A stretch of DNA of 64,000 bases. It comes from Pseudochryseolinea flava (GTDB lineage: Bacteria > Bacteroidota > Bacteroidia > Cytophagales > Cyclobacteriaceae). Below the pieces are notes generated by a model. That model did not search any database. It had not been told where the DNA came from and was given only the letters and a program-made list of their open reading frames with translations. Shown here piece after piece: positions 51,074 through 55,100 of this stretch. Position 1 is the first letter of the stretch; the number at the start of each line of letters is the position of its first letter. The DNA is taken from the NCBI RefSeq assembly GCF_003286915.1, contig NZ_QMFY01000016.1, positions 1-64,000 on the forward strand, given 5' to 3'. Position numbers and translations under genes: made by a program.

Positions 51074-52099
51074 ATGATTAGGGCATTTTTTGTAATCTTC
51101 ATTGCGAACCTCCTTTTAAGTGGCTGTACACAGCGCATGATATGCCCTGCCTATCAGAGTGCGTACATCTACGATAAAGACGAGCTACGCAAGAAATTCA
51201 GCTATTTTGAGAACGACACCATGCCTAAGGTGTACACTGCGAGCAAGAATAAATATCTCGTCGCAGAAGATGTTTCCTATAAAAAGAAATTAAGACAGTT
51301 ACAGACTGTCGTCATGAAACCGGTAAACGTGGTCGTACCAGATTCGCTACAGCCGGGCTATGTGCCTGGTATGGACGAAGACGGGGTGGTTCCTGGCGCT
51401 GAGCTCGACCTCGCGGCGCGTTCTGTAATCGACAGCACATATATCGTTGATGTGCCAACCGATAGCGTTGCAGCACCAGAAGAGGACAGCGTTTATATGA
51501 TCTCTAAAGACAAAGAAGTTCGCGTACTACGATACAATTTCCCCGATAGCTTAGTGTACGATTCTGCGTCTGGAAAATATGGTCGGGAGACTCCCACGTA
51601 CTACGTGGAGGAAGTAAAATTCAATGTTGATCAGGATAACTACATGTGGTATCTCCGTGATTACCTCGTGTTGCCTGATGTTCGCTTAGCGCATTTAGGA
51701 CAACAAGAACAAGCTTCCGGAGCATCCGCAAAGAAGAAGAAGGAAAAGAAAGGCTTCTTTGGATTCTTTAAGAATTTGTTCAAGAAGAAAGATAAATCTG
51801 CTGCAACGGATTCCACGGATGTTGCCGAGCCACCAGTCAAATCAGAGGACGACTTTGATTATGTAGACGAAGATTCGGTGCAGCAAGCAACGACTGCTAC
51901 CCAGGTGGCCCCTAAAGCAGAAAAGAAAGAGAAGAAAGGACTATTCGGACGTAAGAAAAAGGCAGATCAAGATCAACCTGCGGAAACATCTGACGAGAAA
52001 CCAGCACGTCGTAAGAAGGACAAGAAAAAGAAATCAGAAGAGACTGAAGAAGCGCCTACCGAAGAAGAAAAGCAGAAGGAAGAGGAAGACGGATTCTAG
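51074..52099 (+). CDS. Lipoprotein with a Lys/Glu-rich C-terminus
   Basis: The 341-residue protein has a lipobox LLSGC (Cys near residue 18) followed by CTQRMICPAY, so a second Cys within CPxY. Residues 30-215 look like a globular region with short beta strands. From about residue 215 the chain becomes repetitive, with blocks of KKKEKKGFFGFFK, KKEKKGLFGRKKK and RRKKDKKKK separated by acidic segments, ending in EEEDGF. This part is probably disordered. I do not recognise the family. A very small lipoprotein at 61120 shares the Cys...CPxY start. Confidence 0.75.
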   Translation: MIRAFFVIFIANLLLSGCTQRMICPAYQSAYIYDKDELRKKFSYFENDTMPKVYTASKNKYLVAEDVSYKKKLRQLQTVVMKPVNVVVPDSLQPGYVPGMDEDGVVPGAELDLAARSVIDSTYIVDVPTDSVAAPEEDSVYMISKDKEVRVLRYNFPDSLVYDSASGKYGRETPTYYVEEVKFNVDQDNYMWYLRDYLVLPDVRLAHLGQQEQASGASAKKKKEKKGFFGFFKNLFKKKDKSAATDSTDVAEPPVKSEDDFDYVDEDSVQQATTATQVAPKAEKKEKKGLFGRKKKADQDQPAETSDEKPARRKKDKKKKSEETEEAPTEEEKQKEEEDGF

Positions 52100-52100
52100 T

Positions 52101-52175
52101 GTTAACGGATAACAGTTCACGGTAACAGTTCACGGTTCACGGATAACAGTTTACAAGATAACCGATAACCGATAT
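52101..52175. repeat. Short-repeat cluster of GATAAC and TTCACGG units
   Basis: Between two convergent genes lie several copies of ACGGATAACAGTTCACGG-like units: GATAACAGTT at three places and TTCACGG at two, ending in ATAACCGATAACCGATATAAC. Units of about seven bases resemble known short tandemly repeated repetitive sequences. Such sequence may occur elsewhere in the genome. Confidence 0.75.
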
Positions 52176-52177
52176 AA

Positions 52178-52876
52178 CTAATCAAAAAGTGTAAGGTTCC
52201 CGTGTTGATCGGCAGGAGGCGTAGGATGTATAAGGGACGGCACATCTAAAGCTGGATTACTGATTCTCGGAGAAATGGAATATAGATTTAATTGGTTCGC
52301 GGGTATCGCTGTGAGCACCGAAACCAATTCTTCTTCTTTAGTTTCTTTGTTGAGCCATTGAGCCTCCGTTTCAGGAGAAAGAATGACAGGCATACGATCG
52401 TATATGGGAGTCACCAGTTCATTAGCGGGCACCGTAATAATTGAGAAAGTCTGAAGCTCGTTGCCATCGGTATCTTCAAACTCTTCCCATATCGCAGCGA
52501 AAGAGAATATTCCTTCATTCTTATCAACAAAACGATAAGGGATCATTGATTTTTTTCCGGCCTTTTTCCAGGCATAAAAACCATCAGCAGGCACAATACA
52601 TCGACCACGCATCATGGAGCGTTTGATAGCCGGTTTTTCAAGAATCACTTCAGCACGAACGTTGATGATTTTTTCACTAAGCGTTTTATTCTTGGCCCAT
52701 TCGGGAGAAGTTCCCCAATAGAAATTAGAAAGTCCTTCTGGAGCGTTGCTTGTAATCACGCCGATCAACTGAGTAGGTGCTGCGTTGTACTTCGGGGTAT
52801 AGAAATCAGGAACTTCAACGGAGAATCGCTCCGCTATTTTCGTTGCGCTGGCGGTTATGGTGAAACGGTCGATCAT
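52178..52876 (-). CDS. SRAP (YedK/HMCES)-family protein with all catalytic residues replaced
   Basis: SRAP proteins use Cys2 to form a covalent bond with abasic sites in single-stranded DNA, assisted by a Glu and a His. This 232-residue protein keeps the fold motifs (YNAAPTQ at 30-36, NVRAE at 72-76, RCIVPADGFYxW at 92-103, DRMPVIL at 160-166). However, residue 2 is Ile (MIDRF, not MCGRF), the Glu of GFYEW is Ala102 (GFYAW), and the His of HDRMP is Tyr159 (YDRMP). The start is fixed by a four-base ATGA overlap with yheT and by the lack of any better upstream start. It looks like a non-catalytic member, last in the terC-yfiT-yheT operon. Confidence 0.88.
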   Translation of the reverse strand: MIDRFTITASATKIAERFSVEVPDFYTPKYNAAPTQLIGVITSNAPEGLSNFYWGTSPEWAKNKTLSEKIINVRAEVILEKPAIKRSMMRGRCIVPADGFYAWKKAGKKSMIPYRFVDKNEGIFSFAAIWEEFEDTDGNELQTFSIITVPANELVTPIYDRMPVILSPETEAQWLNKETKEEELVSVLTAIPANQLNLYSISPRISNPALDVPSLIHPTPPADQHGNLTLFD

Positions 52877-53808
52877 GATTGCGTAAAAAATTTGATAGCA
52901 CGCTCTTCACTCCAATATAGTCCATTTTTATTGAACTGGGCGAAGCCTACATGTCCGCCAAAGATAGGTGTCTCTAGCGTAACCACAGGATGATCTGTCA
53001 ATATATCCTCAGGAAAACAATCAGAACTTAGGAAGGGGTCGTTCTTTGCGTTTACGATGAGGGTAGGAATATTGATATGCTTCAGAAAGTAGAGTGAACT
53101 ACACGCCTCGTAATAAGCGATCGCATCTTTAAATCCATGGAGTGGTGCTGTGTATTGATCGTCGAAAGTTTTTAGGTCAGTAATGGCCATCAACTTCCGC
53201 GTGTCGAGTTCGGGATAGAACTTCGCTTTGGCCAACACTTTTTTCTTTAAAGAATTCAGGAAACGTCTTTCGTAGATCCAGTTCGATCGCTCGCCAATGC
53301 GTTGACAACTCGTGTGAAGGTTGAGTGGTACGGAGAAGACAACAGCCTTCTTGATGTGACTGTGGTCGACCGGCTCTCCCAAAAATTTTAGTGTTAGGTT
53401 TCCGCCAAGACTAAATCCCGCGAGATAAATCTCATTGTACTGTAGCCGTGCATGATTCACGATAGTGAGAAGATCGTCGGTGGCGCCACTATGATAAAAA
53501 CGAAGTTGCTTGTTAATCTCACCACTGCAGCCTCGGAAATTCCACGCGAGAATGTCGAAGCCAGCAAGATATCCTGCACGTGCGAGTCCCAGCACATAGG
53601 TGCGCGTTGAATTTCCTTCTAAGCCGTGAGAAATGATCAGCAACTTTTTGGAATTCTGCCGATACCAATCAAGATCGAGGAAGTCATTATCGGGTGTAAC
53701 GATACGTTCGCGCTGCGCTTGCTGGAAACTTACCTTACGAAGAAGCGATGGAAAAATTGTTTCCAGGTGAGCGTTGAAGAGAATGGTAGGTGGTTGATAT
53801 GGATTCAT
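52873..53808 (-). CDS. YheT-like alpha/beta hydrolase
   Basis: The 311-residue hydrolase has the nucleophile elbow GFSLGGN near residue 145, the oxyanion-region SHGLEGNS near residue 60, and NFRGCSGE near residue 92 typical of YheT/ABHD1-3 proteins. The acid is probably Asp in NAKNDPF near residue 253 and the base His in GGHVGF near residue 285. Substrates are likely lipid or short-chain esters but unknown. The ATG lies 22 bases after yfiT; the stop overlaps the SRAP start. Confidence 0.9.
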   Translation of the reverse strand: MNPYQPPTILFNAHLETIFPSLLRKVSFQQAQRERIVTPDNDFLDLDWYRQNSKKLLIISHGLEGNSTRTYVLGLARAGYLAGFDILAWNFRGCSGEINKQLRFYHSGATDDLLTIVNHARLQYNEIYLAGFSLGGNLTLKFLGEPVDHSHIKKAVVFSVPLNLHTSCQRIGERSNWIYERRFLNSLKKKVLAKAKFYPELDTRKLMAITDLKTFDDQYTAPLHGFKDAIAYYEACSSLYFLKHINIPTLIVNAKNDPFLSSDCFPEDILTDHPVVTLETPIFGGHVGFAQFNKNGLYWSEERAIKFFTQS

Positions 53809-53830: not shown

Positions 53831-54355
53831 TCATTTCGTGGCCACGAGGTTAAGGTGCCCGAGGTGGTGCTCACCATGCCACGCATACATGGCGATTGCC
53901 TGATCGAGCCGCACGTGTTTCTTAGACTCAGGATGAAAATACTGTCGACTGTAGTCAGCCGCAGGTATTGCCCGTAACAAAGCTACCCATTTTACATGTA
54001 TTGCTTTCAGCAGGTTTATAGATATTACCGGGTCTAACGCGTTTTCAGGTGTTGTAGACCACGCGCCTTCATTGTAAGGTTTTATCGTCGGAACATCCTC
54101 CGTAAGCATGAGCTTGATGCGTACATATGCGTTAAGGTGGCTATCCGGAATGTGATGGATCACTTGAAGCGCAGTCCAACCGCCATCGCGATAGGGTAGT
54201 TGAAGTTGCTTCGGCGGTAATGTTTTTACTAGCGTTTCTACTTTAATCGGTAGTGCTTCGATGCGGTCAATGCACAGACTGATTTCATCTGCACGATAAC
54301 TTTCTTTCGACTTATGCTTACCAATTGGGAAGCGTAGTGCGTCGTCACTACTCAT
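53831..54355 (-). CDS. YfiT/DinB-like metal-dependent transferase
   Basis: The 174-residue four-helix protein resembles YfiT/BstA, a DinB-superfamily enzyme that in Firmicutes is linked to bacillithiol transfer. Metal-binding His residues appear in HHIPDSH near residue 60 and HGEHHLGH near residue 160. RYRDGGWTALQV (QLPYRDGGW) is a family motif. Start ATG 54355 is preferred over 54394; it overlaps the terC stop by eight bases. The thiol used here is not known; Bacteroidota often have bacillithiol. Confidence 0.88.
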   Translation of the reverse strand: MSSDDALRFPIGKHKSKESYRADEISLCIDRIEALPIKVETLVKTLPPKQLQLPYRDGGWTALQVIHHIPDSHLNAYVRIKLMLTEDVPTIKPYNEGAWSTTPENALDPVISINLLKAIHVKWVALLRAIPAADYSRQYFHPESKKHVRLDQAIAMYAWHGEHHLGHLNLVATK

Positions 54356-55100
54356 GGAATTCTTCTTTTGCCTTCTTTCGTCTATTCCGAACACGAATGT
54401 TGATCATTTCGATGATCATGGAGAATACGATCGCAAAATAGATATATCCTTTTGGCACTTCTTTGCCGAGACCTTCGAGGAAGATCATGAAGCCAATCAA
54501 AATCAAGAAGCCTAATGCAAGCACCTCCATGGATGGATGTTTGTGAATGAACTCACTGATGCGGCCTGAGAAGATGATCATGATACCGATGGAGAGGACA
54601 ACGGCAATAATCATGATGATGATTTCGCTGGTCAATCCAACCGCGGTAAGAATGGAGTCGAATGAGAAAATGATATCTAAGAGAATGATCTGCACGATCA
54701 CGCCTGTAACTTTTGATTTGCCACTGGCTTCAGGTTGGTCGTCCTCGTCTTCACCTTCCATTTCGTGATTGATCTCACGGGTACTTTTCGCAATCAAGAA
54801 CATACCCCCGAAAATGAGGATGAGGTCTCGTCCGCTGATGGCGCCATCTTCGGCAATCCAATGGGGAACATTGAACAAGGGTTCGGTGAATTTCATCACC
54901 CATGTGATGGTGAGGAGGAGTAGGATTCTAACGCCCATGGCGAGCAGAAGACCCATATTCCGTGTTTTGGCCCTGATCTCAATTGGCAACTTGTTGGAGA
55001 CAATGGAGATAAAGATGATATTATCAATACCTAAAACAACTTCGAAAAATGTGAGGGTTAACAGGGCAAGCCAGGTTTCCGCGTGAAGGAATATTTCCAT
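54348..55100 (-). CDS. TerC-family membrane protein
   Basis: The 250-residue protein has about seven hydrophobic segments, with the TerC motifs LGIDNIIFIS near residue 23 and FSFDSILTAVG near residue 147, whose Asp residues sit inside the membrane. TerC-like proteins are implicated in metal (Mn, tellurite) handling; some help to metallate exported enzymes. An acidic cytoplasmic loop (MEGEDEDDQPEAS) sits near residue 115. It is first in the four-gene operon terC-yfiT-yheT-SRAP, with a promoter upstream. Confidence 0.9.
   Translation of the reverse strand: MEIFLHAETWLALLTLTFFEVVLGIDNIIFISIVSNKLPIEIRAKTRNMGLLLAMGVRILLLLTITWVMKFTEPLFNVPHWIAEDGAISGRDLILIFGGMFLIAKSTREINHEMEGEDEDDQPEASGKSKVTGVIVQIILLDIIFSFDSILTAVGLTSEIIIMIIAVVLSIGIMIIFSGRISEFIHKHPSMEVLALGFLILIGFMIFLEGLGKEVPKGYIYFAIVFSMIIEMINIRVRNRRKKAKEEFHE

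Follow-up and report, generated by a model that had tools for sequence, protein, structure and literature searches.

A conserved SRAP-fold protein of Bacteroidota that lacks the catalytic Cys, Glu and His residues and ends in a candidate clamp-binding tail

Genes and features of the locus

The window, by which we mean the whole stretch of 64,000 nucleotides analysed here (Pseudochryseolinea flava, contig NZ_QMFY01000016.1, positions 1 to 64,000), carries on its minus strand a gene for a SRAP-fold protein in which the catalytic triad of the family is absent. The gene, its relevant codons and its upstream neighbours are the following:

52178..52876, minus strand: gene for the SRAP-fold protein without the triad (ORF of 232 amino acids; Pfam, AlphaFold2 model, Foldseek)
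52871..52873, minus strand: codon for Ile2, which is Cys2 in YedK and HMCES (read from the sequence)
52571..52573, minus strand: codon for Ala102, which is Glu105 in YedK (read from the sequence)
52400..52402, minus strand: codon for Tyr159, which is His160 in YedK (read from the sequence)
52181..52210, minus strand: C-terminal tail DQHGNLTLFD, a candidate clamp-binding motif (invariant columns in relatives)
52873..53808, minus strand: yheT, alpha/beta hydrolase, directly upstream, overlapping the SRAP start by four bases
53831..54394, minus strand: yfiT-like gene (NCBIfam 'YfiT family bacillithiol transferase'), for which the GTG given as the start probably lies too far upstream
54348..55100, minus strand: gene for a TerC family membrane protein (ORF and domain match)

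The protein scores 191.6 bits with the Pfam SRAP profile (PF02586; cut-off 27.1), over profile positions 1-213 of 214, and every SRAP motif quoted in the first-pass annotation of this DNA is found in the ORF translation. E. coli YedK and human HMCES, SRAP proteins that crosslink to abasic sites, share with it the fold, the Pfam family and the ADGFYxW and DRMP motifs, but differ from it in Cys2, Glu105 and His160. The first-pass annotation had claimed that these three residues are replaced by Ile2, Ala102 and Tyr159, and reading the codons directly proves the triple replacement genuine, so that none of the three residues of a crosslinking enzyme is in place. The active-site Asn (Asn75 in YedK) is present as Asn72. 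Arg4 and what we take, from motif positions, to be the equivalents of Asn75, Trp106 and Thr149 of YedK and HMCES are likewise found in the window SRAP.

The ATG of the 232-residue ORF overlaps the yheT stop codon in the sequence ATGA, an arrangement that was taken from the outset to fix the start. None of the ten in-frame codons from this ATG back to the previous stop (an open frame of 242) is ATG, GTG or TTG, and although one of them encodes Cys, no start codon stands in front of it. As there is no start between the ATG and the preceding in-frame stop, Cys2 cannot be restored by another start; since the relatives agree as well, an annotation error behind the missing Cys2 is ruled out and the start holds as first proposed.

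An AlphaFold2 model of the window SRAP, built from 38 sequences, has a mean pLDDT of 89.4. Its Foldseek matches include 2f20 (E 1.4e-19), HMCES (5ko9, 6.8e-17) and the YedK-DNA complexes 6kbz (1.5e-16) and 6nua (3.5e-16), and the 21 matches with E <= 0.001 are all chains of 2f20, HMCES, YedK, 1zn6, 2bdv and 2aeg, structures that are SRAP entries according to their entry titles or to PMC3765255. By model and structural matches together, the window protein has the SRAP fold.

On the other side of the gene, a convergent ORF of 341 amino acids (51074-52099, plus strand) is without a Pfam match; its product starts like a lipoprotein and finishes in a long stretch rich in Lys and Glu. The gap between the two convergent genes is filled by a short array (52101-52154) of a repeated unit (approximately GTTCACGGATAACA), a 16-base piece of which, when up to one mismatch is allowed, has 13 matches in the genome, an array at G000:C43:331117-331244 among them.

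Relatives and intact orthologues at the same locus

Scanning a single genome for each species yielded 37 relatives with 45-66% identity to the window SRAP, labelled Ohtaekwangia, Chryseolinea, Chryseosolibacter, Chryseotalea, Cyclobacteriaceae, Flammeovirgaceae, Cytophagales or Bacteroidetes MAGs; two MAG relatives are labelled Bacteroides sp. and Chitinophaga sp. None of the 37 has the full triad. Residue 2 is Ile in 33, Phe in two, Val in one and Cys in one (L038), the Glu position is occupied by Ala in 34 and by Gly, Cys and Val in one each, and the His is retained once (L013), while the open frames span 228-233 residues in all 37. The first-pass annotation had named, as evidence that would speak against it, close homologues that all start MCGR next to a decaying window copy; with Cys2 absent in 36 of the 37 relatives and a low dN/dS (see below), the opposite is found. 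An ORF similar to the convergent one of the window occurs in 26 of the 37 loci, with variable adjacency.

The gene yheT lies upstream of the SRAP gene in all 37 relatives, and terC and yfiT are found in 35 and 33 of their loci, respectively (L023 stops at a contig end). The same partner accompanies SRAPs with an intact triad: yheT is located beside 21 of the 22 intact SRAPs that carry the C-terminal tail and have flanking sequence (it is absent at L043, and L120 comes without flanks). The intact yheT-linked SRAPs, which read MCGR...GF(Y/F)EW...HDRMP, belong to other genera of the same GTDB family. The operon had been described as an unusual setting for a SRAP, a claim that has to be abandoned, as the pairing of yheT and the SRAP gene is common in this lineage. 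In locus, length (232-233 residues) and tail (DQ(F/H)GNYTLFG), the intact MCGR SRAPs (L045, L047, L100-L114, L116-L119) resemble the window SRAP, from which they differ in keeping Cys2, Glu and His and in having Gly as residue 3. Because yheT adjoins both triad-less and intact SRAPs, the chemistry disappeared from a SRAP that already occupied this locus and not from a spare copy; the triad-less SRAP is an in-place descendant of an ordinary intact SRAP of this family. Among the tail-bearing members with a broken triad outside the window's relatives, L049, L051, L055, L062, L068, L097 and L098 also have yheT; it is absent at L057 and L065, and L067 lies at a contig end. One further tail-bearing SRAP (L115) has Cys2 and Glu but, like the window SRAP, Tyr in place of the His, and is a possible intermediate.

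It had been suggested to look for a normal MCGR-type SRAP elsewhere in the genome. This search succeeded in part: the genome of the window encodes three further SRAPs, all of which have Cys2, but none of which starts MCGR. In five of six congeners, one of them 90% complete in 280 contigs, the triad-less SRAP is the only match, so that the view that a normal copy backs up a triad-less paralogue holds only in part. At one locus (L040, 6584-7822, minus strand), a second SRAP (MCFH inside the listed ORF, GFFEW) is encoded approximately 0.9 kb downstream of the triad-less one.

Distribution and number of losses

The census comprises 167 distinct SRAPs. The tail is carried by 109 of them, 74 of which lack all three catalytic residues, 23 have all three and 12 are mixed in several combinations; among the 58 tail-less SRAPs, 47 have all three. 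Besides the loci given, 60 and 40 hand-chosen sequences were taken from the match listings of two profile searches, and as many of the 40 were chosen for starting at profile position 4, the latter sample leans towards Cys-less proteins and its shares are not frequencies. The choice of starts favoured a nearby Met-Cys, a bias that runs against detecting loss of the Cys.

A tree of 122 rows was built without the trait columns. It leaves out L077, L080, L084, L085, L088 and L089, which are divergent or partial, near-copies that are more than 86% identical and, from the 49 tail-less rows still left that do not start like MCGRY, 18. On this tree the Cys2 state requires 11 changes (bootstrap range 10-12), with at least five changes forced by starred branches, and the intact triad requires seven, with at least four so forced. 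A single origin of the loss is therefore not upheld. On a tree of 87 hand-picked rows, Cys2 requires eight changes, and one set of broken members, held together with weak support (81/87), is the sister of the intact tail-bearing SRAPs. The main clade may thus have seen a single onset of erosion, with Cys2 then disappearing several times. A single clade of all tail-bearing members is poorly supported, with three changes on the 122-row tree and one change, at a support of 14/66, on the 87-row tree.

Thirteen of the triad-less sequences belong to one family (f8), whose assemblies measure 1.0-1.6 Mb and are listed as 54-93% complete, so that the real genome sizes may exceed these values. A second triad-less lineage (family code f41) belongs to another class of this phylum. 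Its members start with M(E/K)RY, MNRF, MIER, MSDR, MAER or MAKR and have K, L, I, V, M or Q at the Glu position. The 16 f41 members included in the tree group together (100/99), separately from the tail-bearing clade, and of these 16 all have Arg4, Asn31 and Trp103 and 14 have Thr148. At the f41-lineage loci L239-L252, L254, L259-L262 and L272, the proteins have endings such as IQ(P/A)IPKLR followed by acids, or LIQPIPK; the N-terminus of L253 is uncertain (artificial TTG start). In the five genomes read (G354, G380, G409, G427 and G470), an MCGR copy is present alongside the f41-type SRAP.

Selection and residue conservation

For triad-less pairs with at least 75% identity, the median dN/dS (Nei-Gojobori) is 0.064 (25 unsaturated of 32 pairs, largest value 0.23), and for intact tail-bearing pairs it is 0.069 (11 unsaturated of 145); these pairs share branches and are not independent. 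The view that the gene is not decaying is borne out by a dN/dS of about 0.06 and the full-length frames of all 37 relatives, and selection for something besides covalent crosslinking, also put forward in the first-pass annotation, is upheld by the low dN/dS and the conserved loss of the triad. That the chemistry was lost while selection kept the protein is well supported.

The three catalytic columns change near the median rate of the protein on the tree (47th, 52nd and 62nd percentile). Asn31, Trp54, Gly55, Pro163 and Trp174 are unchanged over 91 tail-bearing rows, and Trp103 and Arg4 change once and three times, respectively. The window SRAP keeps Arg4, Asn31, Asn72, Arg74, Glu76, Trp103, Thr148 and Arg161. 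By motif position, we take Arg74, Arg161, Trp103 and Thr148 to be Arg77, Arg162, Trp106 and Thr149 of YedK; Arg74 is a presumed DNA contact. In the window's group of 41 sequences, Arg4, Asn31, Asn72, Glu76 and Arg161 are found in all 41, Trp103 and Thr148 in 40 and Arg74 in 28. Given that Arg74 occurs in none and Arg161 in ten of the 34 other triad-less tail-bearing members, DNA binding, too, may be lost in some of them. The 23 intact tail-bearing SRAPs have Lys (16) or Arg (seven) at position 74. The mean net charge is -0.8 for triad-less and 0.7 for intact tail-bearing proteins and the window SRAP has a charge of -6; the triad-less proteins are not more basic. In raw counts, residue 3 is Gly in all 23 intact and Asp or Glu in 59 of the 74 triad-less members. 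As the shift is non-significant in independent pairs (four pairs, starred branches), a convergent acid at residue 3 was rejected as an adaptive signature.

The C-terminal tail

The tail pattern DQ(F/H)GN(L/Y)(T/S)LF hardly varies and is among the least variable parts of the protein. D223, Q224, G226, N227, L230 and F231 are invariant in all 38 rows of an alignment (A1) gathered by similarity to the window SRAP with the tail disregarded; conservation of the tail in the 109-member group, which was defined by the pattern, is partly circular, that in the 38 rows is not. In the AlphaFold2 model, residues 221-230 have a mean pLDDT of 71 and residues 231-232 of 41, all of 230-232 are below 50, and residues 227-230 form a short helix. 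As modelled, the tail is not clearly disordered, with low confidence at 230-232 only. Such a well-kept tip of low model confidence suggests a binding peptide.

The consensus of peptides that bind the bacterial sliding clamp is QL[S/D]LF, or more loosely QxxLF, and its first position reportedly matters for binding (PMC12309361, in part). HMCES, in turn, has been suggested to travel bound to PCNA via a C-terminal PIP box (PMC8053108, in part). Like these motifs, the tail of the window SRAP is short, C-terminal and LF-ending, with Leu and Phe at motif positions 4 and 5 (L230 F231). It differs from QL[S/D]LF in having Asn instead of Gln first, and its model confidence is only partly low; we regard it as a candidate motif. 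Across the 109 tail-bearing members the first residue is Asn in 107, Ser in two and never Gln, and Gln224 sits three residues too far away to serve as motif position 1.

Similar endings are found in DinB. In five loci, one DinB type of the window's genus has the ending PADQLTLF, DQLRLF or DQLKLF, compared with ADQxGNLTLFD in the SRAP, and the other type (L201, L205, L206) has no such peptide at its end; DinB ends were read for genes on the plus strand of their own locus, in 30 loci. In three Ohtaekwangia loci of the window's genus group, dinB is convergent to the triad-less SRAP gene past a lipoprotein-like ORF (L005 6854-7993, L006 6854-7993, L007 7983-9095), at a distance of approximately 1.2-2.3 kb, with a product ending DQLRLF or DQLKLF. 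The ORF list of the window contains no dinB at the corresponding place. Among 240 other ORFs of the 37 loci, LF followed by at most two residues occurs in four, three of which are DinB.

LF tips are also frequent in SRAPs that keep the Cys. When related sequences are each counted singly, LF followed by at most three residues is present in 47 of 95 Cys2 SRAPs outside the tail-bearing group and f41 (shuffled mean 2.5, maximum 9), and a QxxLF tip in 20 of the 95 (shuffled mean 0.17, maximum 3). A later sample of 44 Cys2 SRAPs from the phylum gave QxxLF in none and LF in 16, and none of 21 proteins of the triad-less f41 lineage has an LF tip.

Discussion

We propose, with a probability of a little under one half (about 0.48), that the window SRAP is a non-covalent pseudoenzyme that binds single-stranded or abasic DNA and is tethered to the beta clamp at the replication fork. 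On this reading, an ordinary SRAP that crosslinked to abasic sites has lost the chemistry of Cys2, Glu and His in place, with the protein being kept by selection. Its DNA face (Arg4, Asn31, Asn72, Arg74, Trp103, Thr148 and Arg161) could still grip single-stranded or abasic DNA, now without a covalent bond, and the C-terminal tip GNLTLFD, which may be flexible, might dock in the pocket with which the beta clamp receives peptides. At the fork, such a protein might serve as a reversible shield, a sensor or a recruitment platform. Active-site mutations in YedK and HMCES are reported not to disrupt DNA binding in vitro (PMC9436759, in part), and the laboratory mutants YedK C2A and E105Q, which reportedly keep binding in vitro as well (same source), lack the same residues as the window SRAP. 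Unlike in these mutants, the loss in the triad-less proteins is natural, combined and common to many species. More tentatively, one might speculate that in Bacteroidota a suicide crosslinker has turned into a reversible fork protein more than once, held at the clamp by the GN(L/Y)(T/S)LF tail in one lineage, and that tethering by an LF tip is old in bacterial SRAPs and outlived the chemistry, in parallel to the PCNA tail of HMCES.

Other readings of the same observations can be entertained. The protein might work off DNA as a clamp-bound adaptor or competitor, its fold displaying surfaces to other proteins and its tail competing with DinB and other clamp clients. This is rather unlikely in our view: in family f8 and other members without the triad, tail and core do persist where arginines presumed to contact DNA are lost, and the product of the dinB gene found near three Ohtaekwangia-group loci has a similar end peptide, but the window's group retains Arg4, Asn72, Arg161, Trp103 and Thr148 in at least 40 of its 41 sequences, which is more than an adaptor seems to need, and dinB is nearby in only three of the 37 loci (flanks of at most 5 kb). 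Less likely still is a pocket rebuilt for another reaction or a small ligand via Arg4, Asn31, Asn72, Trp103 and Lys104. In its favour, most of these residues persist although the triad does not, Gly at residue 3 gives way to an acid, and the operon encodes a predicted bacillithiol transferase and a hydrolase; yet no single new nucleophile or acid has become fixed, since position 102 may be A, V, L, F, D, G or C and position 159 varies as well (T, S, Q, Y, A and others), yheT also accompanies the intact orthologues, and the acid at residue 3 fails in the independent pairs.

There is little to recommend a residual abasic-site lyase that uses the free N-terminal amine, as YedK C2A does. Given the specificity of methionine aminopeptidase, Ile2 should block removal of Met1, and with Met1 held in place no N-terminal amine would be exposed at position 2. 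YedK C2A does cut abasic DNA through a Schiff base on its N-terminal amine, but C2A E105Q is 25-fold slower than C2A (PMC9436759, in part), and the window SRAP has Ala at this Glu position. That three catalytic residues are altered in one gene could also point to a decaying gene or an annotation artefact, an explanation to which we give almost no credence: decay is ruled out by the intact frames of the relatives and the low dN/dS, there is no alternative start, and the gene is retained in the 13 sequences from assemblies of 1.0-1.6 Mb. The non-covalent, clamp-tethered pseudoenzyme is the reading that we prefer.

The Cys2 of SRAP proteins has been called invariant (PMC9436759, in part) and absolutely conserved (PMC3765255, in part). 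Our literature search, beyond the reach of which most subscription papers lay, found no paper on natural Cys2-less SRAPs, and in the literature so covered no link between SRAP or YedK and DnaN, the beta clamp. The triad-less SRAPs are a conserved natural subfamily, and the observation on their C-terminal tail is new here. As for the overall interpretation given in the first-pass annotation, the triple replacement, the start, the absence of decay and selection for a role other than crosslinking all stood, and the unusual operon did not; the intact orthologues at the locus, the repeated loss and the near-invariant tail had been missed.

Taken together, a large natural set of Cys2-less proteins at the locus of their intact orthologues provides a ready comparison for dissecting roles of SRAP proteins beyond crosslinking. 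The label 'SOS response-associated peptidase' is misleading for the triad-less genes, because their products lack the residues to which peptidase chemistry has been ascribed. In addition, our results suggest a connection of bacterial SRAPs with the sliding clamp that can be tested, and the parallel with HMCES and PCNA is worth testing.
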